Source: Paludibacteraceae bacterium (lineage in GTDB: Bacteria; Bacteroidota; Bacteroidia; Bacteroidales; Paludibacteraceae). From it: DNA of 64,000 bases. A program made the position numbers and the translations under genes. The stretch covers positions 1 to 64,000 of the forward strand of contig JAGCWA010000049.1 of assembly GCA_017962085.1 (NCBI GenBank), in the 5' to 3' direction. The number at the start of each line of letters is the position of its first letter. Position 1 is the first letter of the stretch. This document shows, piece after piece, positions 3,231 to 15,970 of this stretch. The notes below the pieces were generated by a model that saw only the letters and a list, made by a program, of their open reading frames with translations, had not been told where the DNA came from and made no database searches.

Positions 3231-3866
3231 ATGATCGAAATATTATTCATCTTCATCATAATTGTTTTAAGTGTGGTTCTAACCTTTGTATGGTCGAAGC
3301 ACAAACACTCTGAACATACATTACGTAATTGTGCCATCTCATTTGCCATCACATTAGTCCTTGTTATCAATTTCCTGCTTGTTTTCGTGATTTTCACGAT
3401 CAGTATTGAGGATGCGAGTTATGACATAGATGGCGTCCGTTATGATGGATGGGAGACATGGGATGTGACAACTCCCTATGGGGATTTCCATAAATGTGAC
3501 CAACAATGCTCGTTGTCTGATATTGGGTACATCGACTCAGTTGCCGAATACGATCGGTACATTGTTGTGGTAGTATACGATAAGCCCAAGGTTTATGTCA
3601 GCATCGACGAACAACGCAACATCAACAAGGCCACGTCCCTCTCAGAATTGCCTGTGACAGTCTCCCGGGATGATTTCAGAAATGCTTCATATTACATTGA
3701 AAAGTTAAGTGAACCGGCATACCAAAAGAGTCTGAAACGGAACGAAGAGAAGCCCTCTTCCCTTAAAATTGGATTACTCTCCCTACTAATAGCCTCGTTA
3801 ATCACTATATTGGAATGTTATTTTATCAAACTCGTCAGGCACATATTGTCCCTCATCATATCCTGA
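3231..3866 (+). CDS. Hypothetical membrane protein
   Basis: No family is recognised in this 211-residue protein. It has two hydrophobic helices at the N-terminus (about residues 3-20 and 33-56), an extramembrane middle of about 115 residues, and one C-terminal helix (about 181-205). The middle is rich in Asp and Tyr and contains two close cysteines (CDQQC). Its last 11 bases overlap the end of the convergent DUF3307 gene. It begins 41 bp after ogt, so shared transcription is possible. Its frame is open throughout and the membrane topology is coherent, which supports a real gene. Confidence 0.7.
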   Translation: MIEILFIFIIIVLSVVLTFVWSKHKHSEHTLRNCAISFAITLVLVINFLLVFVIFTISIEDASYDIDGVRYDGWETWDVTTPYGDFHKCDQQCSLSDIGYIDSVAEYDRYIVVVVYDKPKVYVSIDEQRNINKATSLSELPVTVSRDDFRNASYYIEKLSEPAYQKSLKRNEEKPSSLKIGLLSLLIASLITILECYFIKLVRHILSLIIS

Positions 3867-4635
3867 ATAGATGTTTTATGCTAAGTCCCAGGAATATGGC
3901 GATGGCGTAGCTAAGCAATGTGCCTATCAACACATACTCCGATTTAGCTGTTTTGCTCTCCGAATATCTAAGGATGGACTTCGCCGCCATGATGAATCCG
4001 ACCACTTCATAATCACCTGTCAGGACGAATGTCAGGGTCATCAGACGTTCTGTGTTTCCGATGATCTTTCCCGCATTAGGCAATTCATCAGACTCCAATG
4101 AATCTTCGGTTCCCTTCGACGGCTCCTCCGTCGGCACGTTCACCTTCGCATACGACAACACTTTCTTGATGATGATATTGGCAGGCTTTAGGCACCAGAG
4201 TATGCCGATGAATATCGCGATGGTGGAATCCTGGTAAAGCACGCTTAATCCGTGCTGATCCATCGTGTTCATGAGCCCCACGGCCCATTGGCATGGCTCC
4301 ATCCTTTCGAAACTGAGGATACATGCCGCTGCGACAATCACAACGTGTAGTATTTGGTCAAGGAAAAACAGATGGATCCGCTCTTTGCGGAGCGCGTTTT
4401 TAAGACCATCGATGACATAATGCGTGCCCGCTACGATGAATGCCGGGAACCAAAATCCCCAAGGGGAGGCGAGGAGCAGCGACAAGAGTAGGGTGATGAT
4501 GACATGAGCGAACAGATGGGGAGAAAGAAAACTTCTAAAACCGTCCCTTTTCTTCCCCTGACACATAGCGTCGTTCTGAAAGAAAAAATCCGACAAAGTG
4601 TGTGCAACCAATTGAAGTAGAAATAGTTTAATCAT
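3856..4635 (-). CDS. DUF3307 family membrane protein
   Basis: The N-terminus (LLQLVAHTLSDFFFQ) and the following His-rich membrane segments (SPHLFAHVIITLLL, then GTHYVIDGLKNAL) are characteristic of the DUF3307 family, integral membrane proteins of unknown activity. Conserved His and Asp residues inside the hydrophobic segments suggest a metal or catalytic site in the membrane, but that is inference. The protein is 259 residues with about six hydrophobic segments and a polar Glu/Ser-rich loop around residues 165-190. It starts 3 bp after the SatD-family gene, so the two are almost certainly co-transcribed; this pairing is known from other bacteria. Confidence 0.85.
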   Translation of the reverse strand: MIKLFLLQLVAHTLSDFFFQNDAMCQGKKRDGFRSFLSPHLFAHVIITLLLSLLLASPWGFWFPAFIVAGTHYVIDGLKNALRKERIHLFFLDQILHVVIVAAACILSFERMEPCQWAVGLMNTMDQHGLSVLYQDSTIAIFIGILWCLKPANIIIKKVLSYAKVNVPTEEPSKGTEDSLESDELPNAGKIIGNTERLMTLTFVLTGDYEVVGFIMAAKSILRYSESKTAKSEYVLIGTLLSYAIAIFLGLSIKHLFRI

Positions 4636-4638
4636 TTT

Positions 4639-5388
4639 TTAAAATTTAATATGTTCGTAATGTTTTAATACCTGTTCAATGGCTTTCCATCCGAATTGAG
4701 TGGAGTGCTGATTCACAGCGGATTGGCTTATGCCGAGCAGTTTCGATATCTCCTCCTCCGTTTTTCCTGTGAGCCGATGGAAGATGACTTCGCATTGGCG
4801 GGCGGTGGCTCTCTTGAATAAGACGTCTATCAATCCCAGATAGGCGTTTATGCGGTCGTTGAGCTCCTCATCCTCCGCATGGAAGAATAAGGTGCTCTTG
4901 ATCGTTATTTTCTTCCTGTTGGATGTCTTTTGTTGCTCGATGGCCCTGCCGGAAGCATAGATGGCCTCTCCGTCCATCACGTTACACGACTCTTCGGCTA
5001 TTCTCATGGATCCTACGGCAATCGCTATCCTGACGCCAAAGGTGGTGAATAGATTCAGCCGTTTTTTCCTGCTCTTGCTCTTATCGTCCGTTCCCGAATT
5101 CCCTGCCACTTCCGTCGAAGGAGCGTCTAAATCCACGTACAAAGGTGTCTTTTTTATGAAAGACTTGAGGAGTAGGGCGACACGTAGCGAATTCTTAGGA
5201 TCCTTGAGGTAGCATTCGATGTTATCGCCTTTGCTCACTCTTCCCCACGAAATGAATCCCTGCGCCGACAACTGATGTATCAGCTCGTTGATGTTTTGCT
5301 GTACTTCCATGAGCTGTTTCAGCTCCATAGCGGTCGAAGATACTATGTCTGCGGATATTGTGGCCTGCATTTTTTCTTTTAGTTTCAT
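4639..5388 (-). CDS. SatD-family protein with C-terminal helix-turn-helix
   Basis: The N-terminus (TISADIVSSTAM) and SKGDNIE region match the SatD family, which is named after the acid-tolerance locus of Streptococcus mutans and has no established biochemical role. The opening resembles the first strand of nucleotide-cyclase-like folds, though no cyclase activity is implied. The last ~60 residues carry a clear helix-turn-helix (EEISKLLGISQSAVNQH), so DNA binding is likely. I chose the ATG at 5388 over an upstream TTG; an ATG at 5370 is a serious alternative because a -7-like CAAATATA (reverse TATATTTG) sits at 5392-5399. A 29-bp-period array of palindromes begins about 95 bp upstream and is a candidate operator. 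Confidence 0.8.
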   Translation of the reverse strand: MKLKEKMQATISADIVSSTAMELKQLMEVQQNINELIHQLSAQGFISWGRVSKGDNIECYLKDPKNSLRVALLLKSFIKKTPLYVDLDAPSTEVAGNSGTDDKSKSRKKRLNLFTTFGVRIAIAVGSMRIAEESCNVMDGEAIYASGRAIEQQKTSNRKKITIKSTLFFHAEDEELNDRINAYLGLIDVLFKRATARQCEVIFHRLTGKTEEEISKLLGISQSAVNQHSTQFGWKAIEQVLKHYEHIKF

Positions 5389-5970
5389 ATGCAAATATAT
5401 AATTTATATTTTGTTTTTGACGTGTATCGCCCTGAAAATAATAGCATTGTTGCACCTCTCTTTTTATTTGATGCCTCTAACCCTTTAGTTGTCATGTATA
5501 AGCTATTTGTCTTATAAATGTAGTTTATAAGTATATAACCTTATAGATGTAATTTATAAGTCTTTTTGCTTATAAAAGTATTTTATAAGTGATTCGGCTT
5601 ATAAATTAAGTTTATAAGTATTTTAGCTTATAAATAGTAAATATAAGTCATTTTGCTTATAAAATTTATTTATAAGTGTAATGACTAATAAATATAGTTT
5701 ATAAGTTTTTCTGCTAATATTAGGCGATGAAGTGTCTCATCCCCTAAAAATGTTTGCCATTTCATTGCTTGAACAAGCCAATATCGTTTACTCGTTTTCC
5801 TGCGAATTATTTGCAAATTCCATGAACTTTTCTAAAATTTGTAATGAGGTCGAGCATATCTAAGACAATGGTGCTTGATTTATTGTCTATTGCTAAAATA
5901 TTAAAAATGAGTGAATTGTGCAATATTTTTTATTTAATATTATTTGTTTAATTCAACCAACGGGTTCGTT
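5389..5970. other. Intergenic region containing the palindrome array
   Basis: This 582-bp stretch separates satD (reading left) from the second small membrane protein gene (reading right). Its main content is the palindrome array at 5482-5723. The rest (5724-5970) is AT-rich with no convincing open frame, RNA gene or terminator that I can see. It should hold the promoters of both flanking genes. Confidence 0.7.
5482..5723. repeat. 29-bp-period array of AT-rich palindromes
   Basis: Seven clear 21-bp units start at 5511, 5540, 5569, 5598, 5627, 5656 and 5685, exactly 29 bp apart, with 8-bp spacers of different sequence. The unit is CTTATAAA-N5-TTTATAAG, an inverted repeat with 8-bp arms; the unit at 5569 has 9-bp arms. 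The right arm is the better conserved half. A degenerate unit precedes (ending GTATAAG at 5502, again followed by an 8-bp spacer) and another follows (CTAATATTAG from 5714). The spacers are far too short for CRISPR. It lies upstream of satD and could be an operator array, a set of hairpins or another protein-binding platform. Confidence 0.9.
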
Positions 5971-6243
5971 ATGCTATATGTAATCGCAATTGTAAACCTA
6001 CTGCTTGGTGAGTTTACTTTTGGCTATCTTTTTTTTGAACCAAAACCTGAGGTCAGCTACCTTTATGCGGCCATGCTAGGTTCTATTGGTTTAAACATTC
6101 TGCTATTTTTCCTGATTCGGAAAGGATGGGAAAACTATTCGTCTCATAAAAAAATCTTTTCTATAATTATCTGGTTGCTCGGTGATTTTTTGTGGTACCC
6201 CATTCTCGCATCACCGTACATATGGAGATTGTTGTGGCAATAA
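5971..6243 (+). CDS. Small membrane protein, copy 2
   Basis: This is the intact-looking paralogue of the protein at 2339-2629. It has 90 residues with three hydrophobic segments and the same opening MLYVIAIVNL. The ATG at 5971 is preferred over an in-frame TTG at 5944 because it matches the start of copy 1. It ends WRLLWQ-stop, where copy 1 is frameshifted. No family is recognised. The two copies lie 3.4 kb apart in the same orientation and bracket ogt, the hypothetical membrane protein and the DUF3307/satD pair. Confidence 0.65.
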   Translation: MLYVIAIVNLLLGEFTFGYLFFEPKPEVSYLYAAMLGSIGLNILLFFLIRKGWENYSSHKKIFSIIIWLLGDFLWYPILASPYIWRLLWQ

Positions 6244-6657
6244 AACGTGTTTTCGTTTGAAAATGAACAACATAATATAATTTCAAAAAGGGCATACTGT
6301 GCGAAGACGAACGCTGGAATTTGCCGGATGAATGCCAACAGCTGGAATCGAGTCCCGAAGAACACGCATGATGATCGGTTTAAAAAATACATAGGGAAAG
6401 AGTTATGTTTGTTGAAAAAAAACTATCTTTGCAGGGATTGTTAACCACGTTTGTGGAAAAATGAGCGAGCAGACATTAATTCTCCTAGATGGTTTGCGAA
6501 GATCGGGAGAACAGATTGGGAAACACAACCAAGCCTTGCATCTGGAATAAGATGTCTTTTGATTGATGGAATAGAATTTGGGCTGATGAAGTCTGAGGTT
6601 CTGCATCGTTACCATTGTACATTATTGATAGACACTGTATTATATAATTTGTAGGCA
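6244..6657. other. Intergenic leader of the glycosidase cassette
   Basis: About 414 bp with no gene I can support: two short consecutive frames (6247-6444, 6451-6654) encode unremarkable peptides without family features. A TATCTTTG at 6424-6431 is a fair -7 element, which would give a leader of about 220 nt for the hydrolase cassette. No clear -33 partner at the usual distance is present. Confidence 0.5.
6424..6431 (+). promoter_or_regulatory. Candidate -7 element (TATCTTTG) for the hydrolase cassette
   Basis: TATCTTTG fits the Bacteroidetes -7 consensus. A TTTG at 6408-6411 is closer (12 bp spacer) than the usual 19-21 bp, so the promoter assignment rests on the -7 box alone. Confidence 0.35.
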
Positions 6658-9297
6658 ATGAAAACACAATTCACGAAGGCAGGTTTACTGCATGGGTTGG
6701 CATGTTTGTCCACCCGAATGGCCATATTGGGTACGATGGCTTTTACCCCTATCGTATCGATGGCGCAAGGCGAATCTAACCAGTATGATGAATCTGGTAA
6801 TCAAGCTACATTGTACGTCGCTCCTTCTGGCTCCGACACGAACGACGGCTCTTTTGAGGCTCCGTTCAAGACAATCTCCAGGGCGCAAAAGGAGGTGCGG
6901 AAACTGAACGAAACCATGACGGGTGACATCGTCGTCTGCCTGCGTGGCGGCACCTATCAGCTAGCCAGTACGCTGACACTGAACAACCTAGACGGAGGCA
7001 AGTCGGGCCACTACGTCCGTTACAGGAACTATCCGGGCGAGTCTCCGTTGGTGACGGGTGGCATCCCTATCGAGGGTTGGACCCTGCATGACGCTGAAAA
7101 CAATATCTGGGCCGCCCCGAACGTGGAAGCCCGTTTCCGTCAGCTCTACGTGAACGGTAAGAAGGCTATCCGAGCCCGCTATCCGAACCTGAAGGAGAAC
7201 GGCGACCATAACTTCTTCCGCTTGGCGAAAGTAGACACGCTCGGCAAGGGCTTCGAGGTCTACAGCGACCAAGTGGGTAATTGGAACCAACTGAACAAAG
7301 TGGAGATGCACCTGATGATCGCTTGGGCGGAGTCCATCCTGCGTCTGAGCAAGATCACCAACAAGGGCAATGTCTGCAAGATAGAGGTGCAGGAGCCTGA
7401 GCACACGATGATCTGGCGCCGCAAATACCCGATGCTGGGCACCGCCTTCATGAGCAACCCGCCCCGCCAACAATGCTTCTACTTCGAGAACGCCTACGAG
7501 TTTATCGACCAAGAGGGAGAATGGTACCTGGACGAGGCGGAGAACGTACTCTACTACAAGGCGAGGGAAGGGGAGGATATGACCAAGAGCCTGGTGGTCG
7601 CCCCACGCTTGGAGACATTGATCGCCATCCAAGGGGAAAGCACCTCCAACAAGGTGGGCTACCTCTCTTTCGAGGGCATCACGTTCGCCCATACGAACTT
7701 TACCCTGCCGAGCGAGAAGGGCTACATGGACCTGCAGGCGGGCCTCTACCACCTCGACGTGCTCGATGAGCATCCGGGACAGCCATTGAGCAGTAACCAA
7801 TTCCTCCTGAAGCGTCCAGCTTCCGGTGTCAGGGTGGAGAACGCCCACCATATCCGCATCGAGAAGAACATATTCGCCCAAATGGCCATGACGGGCTTGG
7901 ACTTCGTCTCGGGCACCAACGATGATATGATACAGGGCAATATCTTCACCGACTTGGGTGCGGCAGGCATCATGATCGGTAAGTTCTCGCAGGACGACAA
8001 CACGGAGATCCACAAAGCCTATAACCCTTCCGACCGTGCGGAGATATGCACCCGCGATACGATCAAGAACAACTATATCCACCACGTCACCACCGAATCG
8101 CAGGGCTCTGTGGGCATCGGAGCGGGCTACCCGAGGGATATCGTCATCGAACACAATGAACTGGCCTACATGAACTATTCAGGCATCTCGATCGGCTTCG
8201 GCTGGACGAAGAAGGAGACCGCCATGAACAACAACCACATCAACTGGAACAGAATCCATCATGTCTCCCAACTGCTGGCGGACTGCGGACCAATCTACAC
8301 GCTCTCCAACCAAGGAACGGGCGGACAGATCCAGCACAACTACATCTCAGACATCTCCGCTTCGCAATGGGCGGATTATTGGGTGCTCCCGATCTACTTG
8401 GACGAGGGTTCGAGCGGCTTCGAGGTCTCCGATAACGTGTACGACCGCGCTCCTTCCGGCAATGCGGCCAACCAGGCTGGATCGAACTATTGCCACGACA
8501 ACGACGGACATTCGCAGACCGTCATCAACAATGCGGGCATCGAAAAGGATTATCAGGGCATATTCTCCGTGGTCGTCTCCATCTTGCCCGATTTCTCGGA
8601 GATCGTAGCCCAAACTGCTTTCGTCCCAGACGTGACGATCCCTGGTGTCATCGAAATGGAGAACTATGACTTGGGCGGACAAAGCGTCTCATTCTATGAT
8701 ACGGACTACATCAACGAGGAGGGCTTTTACCGTGAGGATGGTGTGGACATCGTCGGCATCGGTGATTCGCTCAACCCGGATGGATATGCCTTAGGCTACA
8801 CGGCTGCGGGCGAATGGCTCGAATATACGCTACACGTGAAGGAGTCTTCCTCCTATTACTTCTGTGCTTGGGTGGCTTCCGGCTTGGAACATTCGGGTTT
8901 CCGCCTCTTCCTAGATGGTGCGGCGATTACGGACACCATGGAGATACCGCAAGGGGAAAGCTGGACCGATTATACCACGATAGAGGGCGAAACATCCCTG
9001 TTGCAAGAGGGTGACCATGTCATGCGTTTGATGATCACAGGTCCGTACGCGAATATCGATCGAATCCTTTTCGCGAAGAGTCGCTCGGAGCTTACCTCCC
9101 TGCCGTCAATCCTTGCATCGAGTGTAGAACAAGTGTTATATGTTTATGATATAAGAGGTTTTTATTGCGGAACGATTCGTGTGGAGGGAGGTACACCTTC
9201 CTCCATAGAACGCTCCCTGAAAAGGGCGGGCTACCTGCCTGGCGTATACCTCCTCCGTGCTTGCGACGGATCAGTCTTTAAGCATATTTTGAAATAG
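6658..9297 (+). CDS. Secreted parallel beta-helix glycosidase-like protein with CBM6 and type IX-like tail
   Basis: This 879-residue protein starts with a signal peptide (about 37 residues, ending near VSMAQG). The region from LYVAPSGSDTNDGS to about residue 640 is a right-handed parallel beta-helix; the RQLYVNGKKAIRARYPN segment and overall layout resemble GH141/GH120-type enzymes, with GH141 (alpha-L-fucosidase or xylanase) my tentative choice. Residues about 661-806 (IPGVIEMENYD to the NIDRILF end) are a CBM6-type carbohydrate-binding module. The last ~65 residues (YVYDIRG ... LPGVYLLRA) resemble a type IX secretion sorting tail. It heads a three-gene cassette with a beta-galactosidase and an alpha-fucosidase, which supports a role in glycan breakdown. 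Exact activity is unproven. Confidence 0.75.
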   Translation: MKTQFTKAGLLHGLACLSTRMAILGTMAFTPIVSMAQGESNQYDESGNQATLYVAPSGSDTNDGSFEAPFKTISRAQKEVRKLNETMTGDIVVCLRGGTYQLASTLTLNNLDGGKSGHYVRYRNYPGESPLVTGGIPIEGWTLHDAENNIWAAPNVEARFRQLYVNGKKAIRARYPNLKENGDHNFFRLAKVDTLGKGFEVYSDQVGNWNQLNKVEMHLMIAWAESILRLSKITNKGNVCKIEVQEPEHTMIWRRKYPMLGTAFMSNPPRQQCFYFENAYEFIDQEGEWYLDEAENVLYYKAREGEDMTKSLVVAPRLETLIAIQGESTSNKVGYLSFEGITFAHTNFTLPSEKGYMDLQAGLYHLDVLDEHPGQPLSSNQFLLKRPASGVRVENAHHIRIEKNIFAQMAMTGLDFVSGTNDDMIQGNIFTDLGAAGIMIGKFSQDDNTEIHKAYNPSDRAEICTRDTIKNNYIHHVTTESQGSVGIGAGYPRDIVIEHNELAYMNYSGISIGFGWTKKETAMNNNHINWNRIHHVSQLLADCGPIYTLSNQGTGGQIQHNYISDISASQWADYWVLPIYLDEGSSGFEVSDNVYDRAPSGNAANQAGSNYCHDNDGHSQTVINNAGIEKDYQGIFSVVVSILPDFSEIVAQTAFVPDVTIPGVIEMENYDLGGQSVSFYDTDYINEEGFYREDGVDIVGIGDSLNPDGYALGYTAAGEWLEYTLHVKESSSYYFCAWVASGLEHSGFRLFLDGAAITDTMEIPQGESWTDYTTIEGETSLLQEGDHVMRLMITGPYANIDRILFAKSRSELTSLPSILASSVEQVLYVYDIRGFYCGTIRVEGGTPSSIERSLKRAGYLPGVYLLRACDGSVFKHILK

Positions 9298-15854: not shown

Positions 15855-15970
15855 TTTGTTTGATTCATTTAATTCGTCCTCTTTTTTATGGCGCAAATAT
15901 TTTTTTTATCCGACTATTATTCTTAAATTCGCTAAGAGTTTGAATTTATTAACTTTTAAATATTATTGAT

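Follow-up and report, generated by a model that had tools for sequence, protein, structure and literature searches.

A probable autoregulatory operator array with a 28- or 29-bp pitch upstream of satD-DUF3307 gene pairs in Bacteroidota

Autoregulatory tandem operators are known from bacterial and phage repressors, and arrays of binding sites also form plasmid centromeres, such as ParR-parC, in which a partition motor gene lies adjacent. Class III nucleotidyl cyclases include proteins that combine a cyclase with a helix-turn-helix, such as mycobacterial Rv0386. The locus described here, a satD-like gene paired with a DUF3307 gene and preceded by an array of inverted half-sites, lies in a 64,000-nucleotide stretch of DNA (the window) from a Paludibacteraceae bacterium. 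Like repressor operators, its half-sites are inverted, stand upstream of their own gene, in most loci near the start codon, and would be read by a helix-turn-helix. Unlike them, they number as many as 13 or so operators within 400 bp and keep a single pitch of 28 or 29 bp in many genomes of the phylum although their letters vary, and the SatD protein bears a cyclase-like domain. The fixed pitch and the small, putatively DNA-binding product of the same operon recall ParR-parC, but the partner of SatD is DUF3307 and the repeated unit is a dyad with an 8-bp centre (N8). A parC-like centromere was considered and set aside, as no partition gene occurs among the eight window ORFs run against Pfam and in 111 of 120 loci the ORF directly downstream of satD, in the same orientation, is a DUF3307-like one.

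SatD belongs to the Streptococcus mutans sat cluster together with SatC, SatE, Ffh and YlxM (PMC12077213), a SatD protein is named in Fusobacterium (PMC10326533), and DUF3307 is named in a paper on a Ralstonia jumbo phage (PMC8504454). The S. mutans protein and the present set have the Pfam SatD family in common (matched by 40 of 70 aligned homologues at E ≤ 0.01, best 6.2e-36), but the partner here is DUF3307, and the passage of PMC12077213 on the S. mutans cluster mentions no operator array. A partial literature search returned no description of a satD-DUF3307 system or of a SatD operator array. The comparison presented below proposes a target and a likely function for a widespread protein family that the literature searched knows only as a name.

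The satD-like gene (4639..5370, minus strand) encodes 243 residues when read from the ATG at 5370 (MQATIS...), a presumed start with in-frame alternatives at ATG 5388 and TTG 5394. Three bases past its stop codon begins the DUF3307 gene (3856..4635, minus strand), whose product belongs to Pfam PF11750 (79.9 bits against a cut-off of 23, E 2.1e-22), and the two genes probably form one operon. The name satD, given by an earlier reading of the sequence alone, is approximate: homologues match Pfam SatD (PF16264), but the window protein gave no match to that profile at E ≤ 1 and is not a member of the curated family; the genome containing the window gave none either, a result of little weight since none of 14 control genomes matched. 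By sequence, the window protein is related to the SatD family yet lies beyond the reach of the curated profile.

SatD is predicted to consist of a cyclase-like domain and a C-terminal helix-turn-helix, the latter also recognised in the sequence-only reading; its recognition-helix region, residues 214-223 (ISQSAVNQHS) as counted from ATG 5370, is encoded at 4702..4731 on the minus strand. The likeness to class III cyclase-helix-turn-helix proteins comprises the predicted cyclase-like fold, the fusion itself and an invariant pair of aspartates, D8 and D49, present in 70 of 70 aligned sequences (this alignment holds 70 rows selected from 99 non-redundant ones, and another holds 65 selected from 80), which we take to be the metal-site residues by their role in cyclases. 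The transition-state Asn and Arg, in contrast, are not kept among the 70 sequences, with positions matched by eye: position 138, the place of the catalytic Asn, is mostly Y, V, I, Q, H or T, and residue 142 is Arg in 33 of 70. SatD is for this reason not classed as a cyclase, from which it further differs in being a small two-domain protein with its own array.

Phase, pitch and linkage of the array

The array occupies 5497..5719 (no strand assigned), 126 bp upstream of the satD-like ATG, in a draft genome of 3.37 Mb and 59 contigs. The nearest named relatives found for this genome are metagenome assemblies of Paludibacteraceae, two of which carry the labels sheep rumen and yak omasum. It had been read from the letters as seven 21-bp dyads of the form CTTATAAA-N5-TTTATAAG at an exact 29-bp step, and all seven were recovered, spanning 5511-5705 (starts 5511, 5540, 5569, 5598, 5627, 5656 and 5685, with 0, 1, 0, 0, 2, 0 and 1 mismatches). 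With up to three mismatches, the N5 pattern matches eight times in the window against 0.26 expected, a number reached in none of 100 shuffles; the eighth match, at 15953, has three mismatches and lies outside the array. At 0-1 mismatch, every match in the 3.37-Mb genome falls inside the array. The repeat and its pitch therefore stand as first read, but with the N5 phase a surplus of half-sites remains at either end; the better fit is TATAAG-N8-CTTATA, which yields eight complete 20-bp dyads at the same 29-bp pitch (starts 5497, 5526, 5555, 5584, 5613, 5642, 5671 and 5700), six perfect and two with one mismatch, bounded by flanking slots with 5 and 6 mismatches of 12. What had been taken for 8-bp spacers is the inner part of the operator. 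CRISPR arrays comprise direct repeats, long unique spacers and cas genes; the spacers here measure 8 and 5 bp, too short for CRISPR as already remarked, and no cas gene was found among the eight window ORFs run against Pfam. Beyond the array, a stretch of about 180 bp at 5784-5966 has many occurrences in genomes of the genus, the longer copies being about 73-81% identical, and a small ORF beside it (5944-6243) resembles the ORF at 2339-2629.

Protein matches were found in 15 of 101 genomes of relatives, in 27 of 358 genomes of the family (one being a 38-residue helix-turn-helix match only) and in 104 of 395 genomes drawn over the phylum, the window's own genome being counted each time. The resulting 141 loci were reduced to 120 distinct proteins with upstream DNA, leaving out 19 matches of the phylum draw, mostly lower-scoring; a DUF3307-like ORF is present in 114 of the 120. 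By eye, the arrays of diverged relatives have other letters at the same step. Autocorrelation over the last 330 bp (lags 12-60, p ≤ 0.01, 100 shuffles) gave a significant best lag in 74 of the 120 satD upstreams, a sample that includes close relatives and depends on predicted gene starts, and all 74 best lags are 29 (39), 28 (29), 58 (3), 57 (2) or 56 (1). When each lag is scored on its own over the last 400 bp, the 99% shuffle level is exceeded at lag 28 in 49 upstreams and at lag 29 in 54, and at every other lag between 20 and 40 in 0-7 of 120. Of 142 control upstreams, drawn from these loci and from the window, 7 were significant, at lags 12, 14, 14, 21, 29, 40 and 57, the sole 29-bp case being a second satD-type array directly after DUF3307 in genome G357. 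The dyad period that the sequence-only reading proposed to look for beside satD/DUF3307 pairs in related genomes thus recurs in many genomes of the phylum. In one locus (L114, about 3280-3360), some ten copies of a different unit, the 7-bp CATAGTC, stand upstream of an ORF that presumably encodes a MenG/UbiE-type methyltransferase.

A segment score limited to lags 28 and 29 detects arrays in 96 of 120 upstreams; a symmetric profile is supported in 72 of these at p ≤ 0.05 and in 49 at p ≤ 0.01, with 24 failing the former threshold. The chosen dyad centre falls between two bases in 68 of the 72 symmetric arrays, which, like the 120 upstreams, include close relatives. This is informative for the 29-bp arrays (32 of 36), in which just one of the two centres has that parity, and uninformative for the 28-bp arrays (36 of 36), in which both centres share it. 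When 8-bp half-sites are read from 4.5 bp off the dyad centre, a frame set by the analyst, ATA occupies positions 4-6 in 58 of 72 arrays, in 29 of 36 at either pitch; because this placement is equal in both, the N8 side is common to the two pitches and the other gap differs by one base. Array ends fit the N8 phase, with a left arm first and a right arm last, in 44 of 72 cases and the opposite phase in 5, with mixed ends in 23 (18 and 5); these counts are affected by the 400-bp scan, which truncates some arrays, and by a choice of centre that relied on the G/C edge of the half-site and mislabelled at least one locus (L057). In the 56 of these 72 arrays that have at least three full units, identity between units is 89% in the arms, 56% in the N8 and 37% in the gap, and the arms rank first in 56 of 56.

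The array also follows the gene. The two-dyad pattern TATAAG-N8-CTTATA-N9-TATAAG-N8-CTTATA, with at most two mismatches, occurs in 9 of 358 family genomes, namely 8 of 27 with satD against 1 of 331 without detected satD (Fisher p 3e-9), and in the eight satD genomes the listed sites adjoin satD. Two satD-less sites were viewed in full (G010 and G001): DNA matching the window continues before and after the block with other ORFs between, and neither contains a satD match, the array pattern or, by eye, a DUF3307 among the intervening ORFs. The sequence-only reading had held that arrays at loci without satD, or satD genes in close relatives without arrays, would disconnect the two. The former is limited to the single genome just counted, and the latter qualifies the linkage, the array being common and not obligatory, because no array was detected upstream of 24 of the 120 satD genes. 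These 24 include all 11 fetched loci of group f59, which keep a DUF3307-like ORF, one of two f77 loci, and L060, which is only a weak helix-turn-helix match.

Half-site letters and the recognition helix

Across the 72 loci with symmetric arrays, half-site distance correlates with the distance between nine-residue recognition helices (Mantel r 0.60) more strongly than with that between whole helix-turn-helix domains (r 0.42) or SatD bodies (r 0.23). The correlation with the helix persists once body distance is removed (r 0.58, p 5e-4, 2000 permutations), and that with the body, given the helix-turn-helix, is -0.18. The five strongest couplings between residues and bases, numbered from MQATIS, are 218-2, 221-3, 216-5, 221-1 and 217-3; half-site bases show weaker coupling with some residues beyond the helix, foremost 241 (z 9.7) and 158 (z 9.1).

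Simple pairings, whose residue groups and bases were picked after looking at the table of helices and half-sites, describe how the letters vary. Of 20 loci with Lys or Arg at 221, 18 have G at base 1, against 0 of 52 others (16 of 18 against 0 of 40 over 58 distinct helices), and G3 is found in 23 of 24 loci with Asp, Glu, Gly or Thr at this residue and in 4 of the other 48. Ala218 accompanies T2 in 24 of 27 (11 of 45 elsewhere), Ser218 accompanies C2 in 21 of 25 (8 of 47 elsewhere), and Gln216 accompanies ATA in 58 of 60 (0 of 12 elsewhere). On a tree of the SatD bodies, Lys/Arg221 and G1 change nine times each. Supported independent pairs on this tree number five for Lys/Arg221-G1 (mean 4.4 concordant, 0 opposite, median p 0.125), six for Gln216-ATA (mean 4.9 concordant, 0 opposite, median p 0.0625), five for Ala218-T2 (3.7 concordant, 0.1 opposite) and two for the acidic group at 221 with G3 (1.5 concordant, 0.1 opposite); this tree-corrected test is conservative, and with so few pairs it did not reach significance. 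In two genomes that carry two satD copies each, the arrays differ in letters from copy to copy (L013 and L029 in G007; L065 and L092 in G635). The set amounts to dozens of natural, matched regulator-operator pairs, from which a code relating helix to base can be read.

An autoregulatory operator array and its alternatives

As read from these alignments, the comparison shows linkage to satD, a fixed pitch, a fixed N8 geometry and covariation between helix and half-sites. The array agrees with the definition of an operator array, dyads upstream of the gene for their own putative binding protein, in position, symmetry and helix covariation, and we consider it highly probable that it is an autoregulatory operator array for SatD that controls satD-DUF3307. 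That SatD binds its own array, an idea put forward in the sequence-only reading, gains strong comparative support from the linkage, the pitch and the way in which the letters track the helix beyond the body. The best reading is accordingly that the array supplies an undescribed regulator with its autoregulatory operators, and on comparative grounds the claim of binding is the strong part of it.

Each unit, a half-site, N8 and an inverted half-site, would constitute one operator for a putative SatD dimer, whose C-terminal helix-turn-helix domains would read it. Dimers would line up side by side at intervals of 28 or 29 bp, a spacing at which neighbours probably touch and bind cooperatively, and the strict pitch makes this arrangement on DNA a structural prediction. 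Given that most loci have the array near the satD start codon, binding should control both satD and DUF3307, most likely by repression. It may also depend on a nucleotide through the cyclase-like domain, which keeps both presumed metal-site aspartates; such a nucleotide-sensing regulator would make the role of DUF3307 testable. A more elaborate scenario, which we offer tentatively and regard as rather unlikely in its full form, is that satD-DUF3307 represents a two-gene switch in which a nucleotide-binding, cyclase-derived one-component sensor forms a cooperative filament on the 28-29-bp array. Either a nucleotide or a stress signal would dissolve or activate this filament and release DUF3307 as the output, possibly as a defence or stress module with the array as its sensor.

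Promoter position is where the autoregulatory reading meets its best surviving competitor, a nucleoprotein or partition-like platform in which SatD would coat or bridge arrays so as to organise or maintain a DNA island, transcription control being secondary. The Bacteroidota -7 box has the consensus TAnnTTTG, and a candidate of this kind, TATATTTG, lies between the array and the satD start (5392..5399, minus strand; putative promoter), about 97 bp from the window array. Such a distance, together with the roughly 13 units that L047, L048 and L071 each hold in the scanned 400 bp and the patchy distribution of satD inside the genus (7 of 16 genomes), would suit a platform, as would arrays on both sides of satD-DUF3307: behind DUF3307, G012 and G006 have five dyads each (at most two mismatches), G357 has three, and G067 has a single dyad. 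Arrays in this place would fit looping or bridging, and simple autorepression does not explain them. Dyads beyond the upstream region, however, occur in just 4 of 72 scanned loci (two arrays and two single sites), plus G357, and no partition gene accompanies the array in the window, as stated above. Moreover, of the 96 arrays, 79 count fewer than 4.5 units and 82 stop within 60 bp of the predicted satD start; a TAnnTTTG box lies within 120 bp of the start in 32 of 72 loci, with an overlap between the array and the last of these boxes in 13. A platform is on this balance improbable. In the window and its nearest relatives, some 110-195 bp separate the array from the start downstream of it; under the autoregulatory reading, the array could act over this distance via a spreading or looping complex. 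At loci L185 (2092-2227, satD strand), L186, L187 and L188, second arrays or dyads matched in letters lie downstream of DUF3307 and bracket the operon.

It is very unlikely that a regulator or nucleoid protein encoded elsewhere is the true occupant of the array. AT-rich dyads could suit further proteins, and one genome without detected satD (G348) has a single two-dyad site (L177, G348:C50:115634-115682), which is intergenic and flanked by ORFs that we take to encode a DUF1016-type nuclease and a Bax-inhibitor-type protein; yet the letters follow the recognition helix of SatD and not its body, and where one genome holds two satD copies, their arrays differ. Much the same low credence is given to the idea that the constant pitch was merely inherited from tandem duplication, with spacing free of selection. 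Recent amplification is indeed shown by the near-identical units of L071 and by L047 and L048, which score like it, but gap letters have diverged to the 37% mean identity given above with the length still at 28 or 29, and the neighbouring lags 27 and 30 stay near background (5 and 1 of 120). Least credible are stacked DNA or RNA hairpins, an option raised in the sequence-only reading, since in these palindromic units deviations from consensus that affect one arm only far outnumber those identical in both (139 against 6 of 1266 arm-pair positions), which argues for reading by a protein and against conserved pairing, the region 4600-6700 of the window has no Rfam match at gathering score, and the window array lies upstream of the candidate promoter.

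Relatives outside the phylum and on plasmids

SatD relatives occur on plasmid records of Vibrio lentus, Salinivibrio (two) and Pseudoalteromonas (two), and all five of these gammaproteobacterial records, from about three independent lineages, have a best upstream lag of 28 (p ≤ 0.01, 200 shuffles). Their N8 dyads, discerned by eye, read TTAGC-N8-GCTAA in V. lentus and GTAAC-N8-GTTAC in Pseudoalteromonas; in a hand alignment, Lys at residue 221 is accompanied by G at base 1, as the rule derived from the window's phylum predicts. A Sphingomonas record has no array upstream of satD, and the plasmid of Segatella copri (L171), from the window's own phylum, has a best upstream lag of 31, neither 28 nor 29. 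The satD queries returned no phage matches. DUF3307 follows satD in five of these seven records, those with usable annotation; the two Pseudoalteromonas records list no genes at the place of DUF3307. In the S. copri plasmid, an IS1182 transposase comes after DUF3307, and in the Sphingomonas plasmid a gene annotated as a Pycsar system effector (L169, 3072-3575), with PADLOC matches to 2TM and PycTM, adjoins satD-DUF3307.
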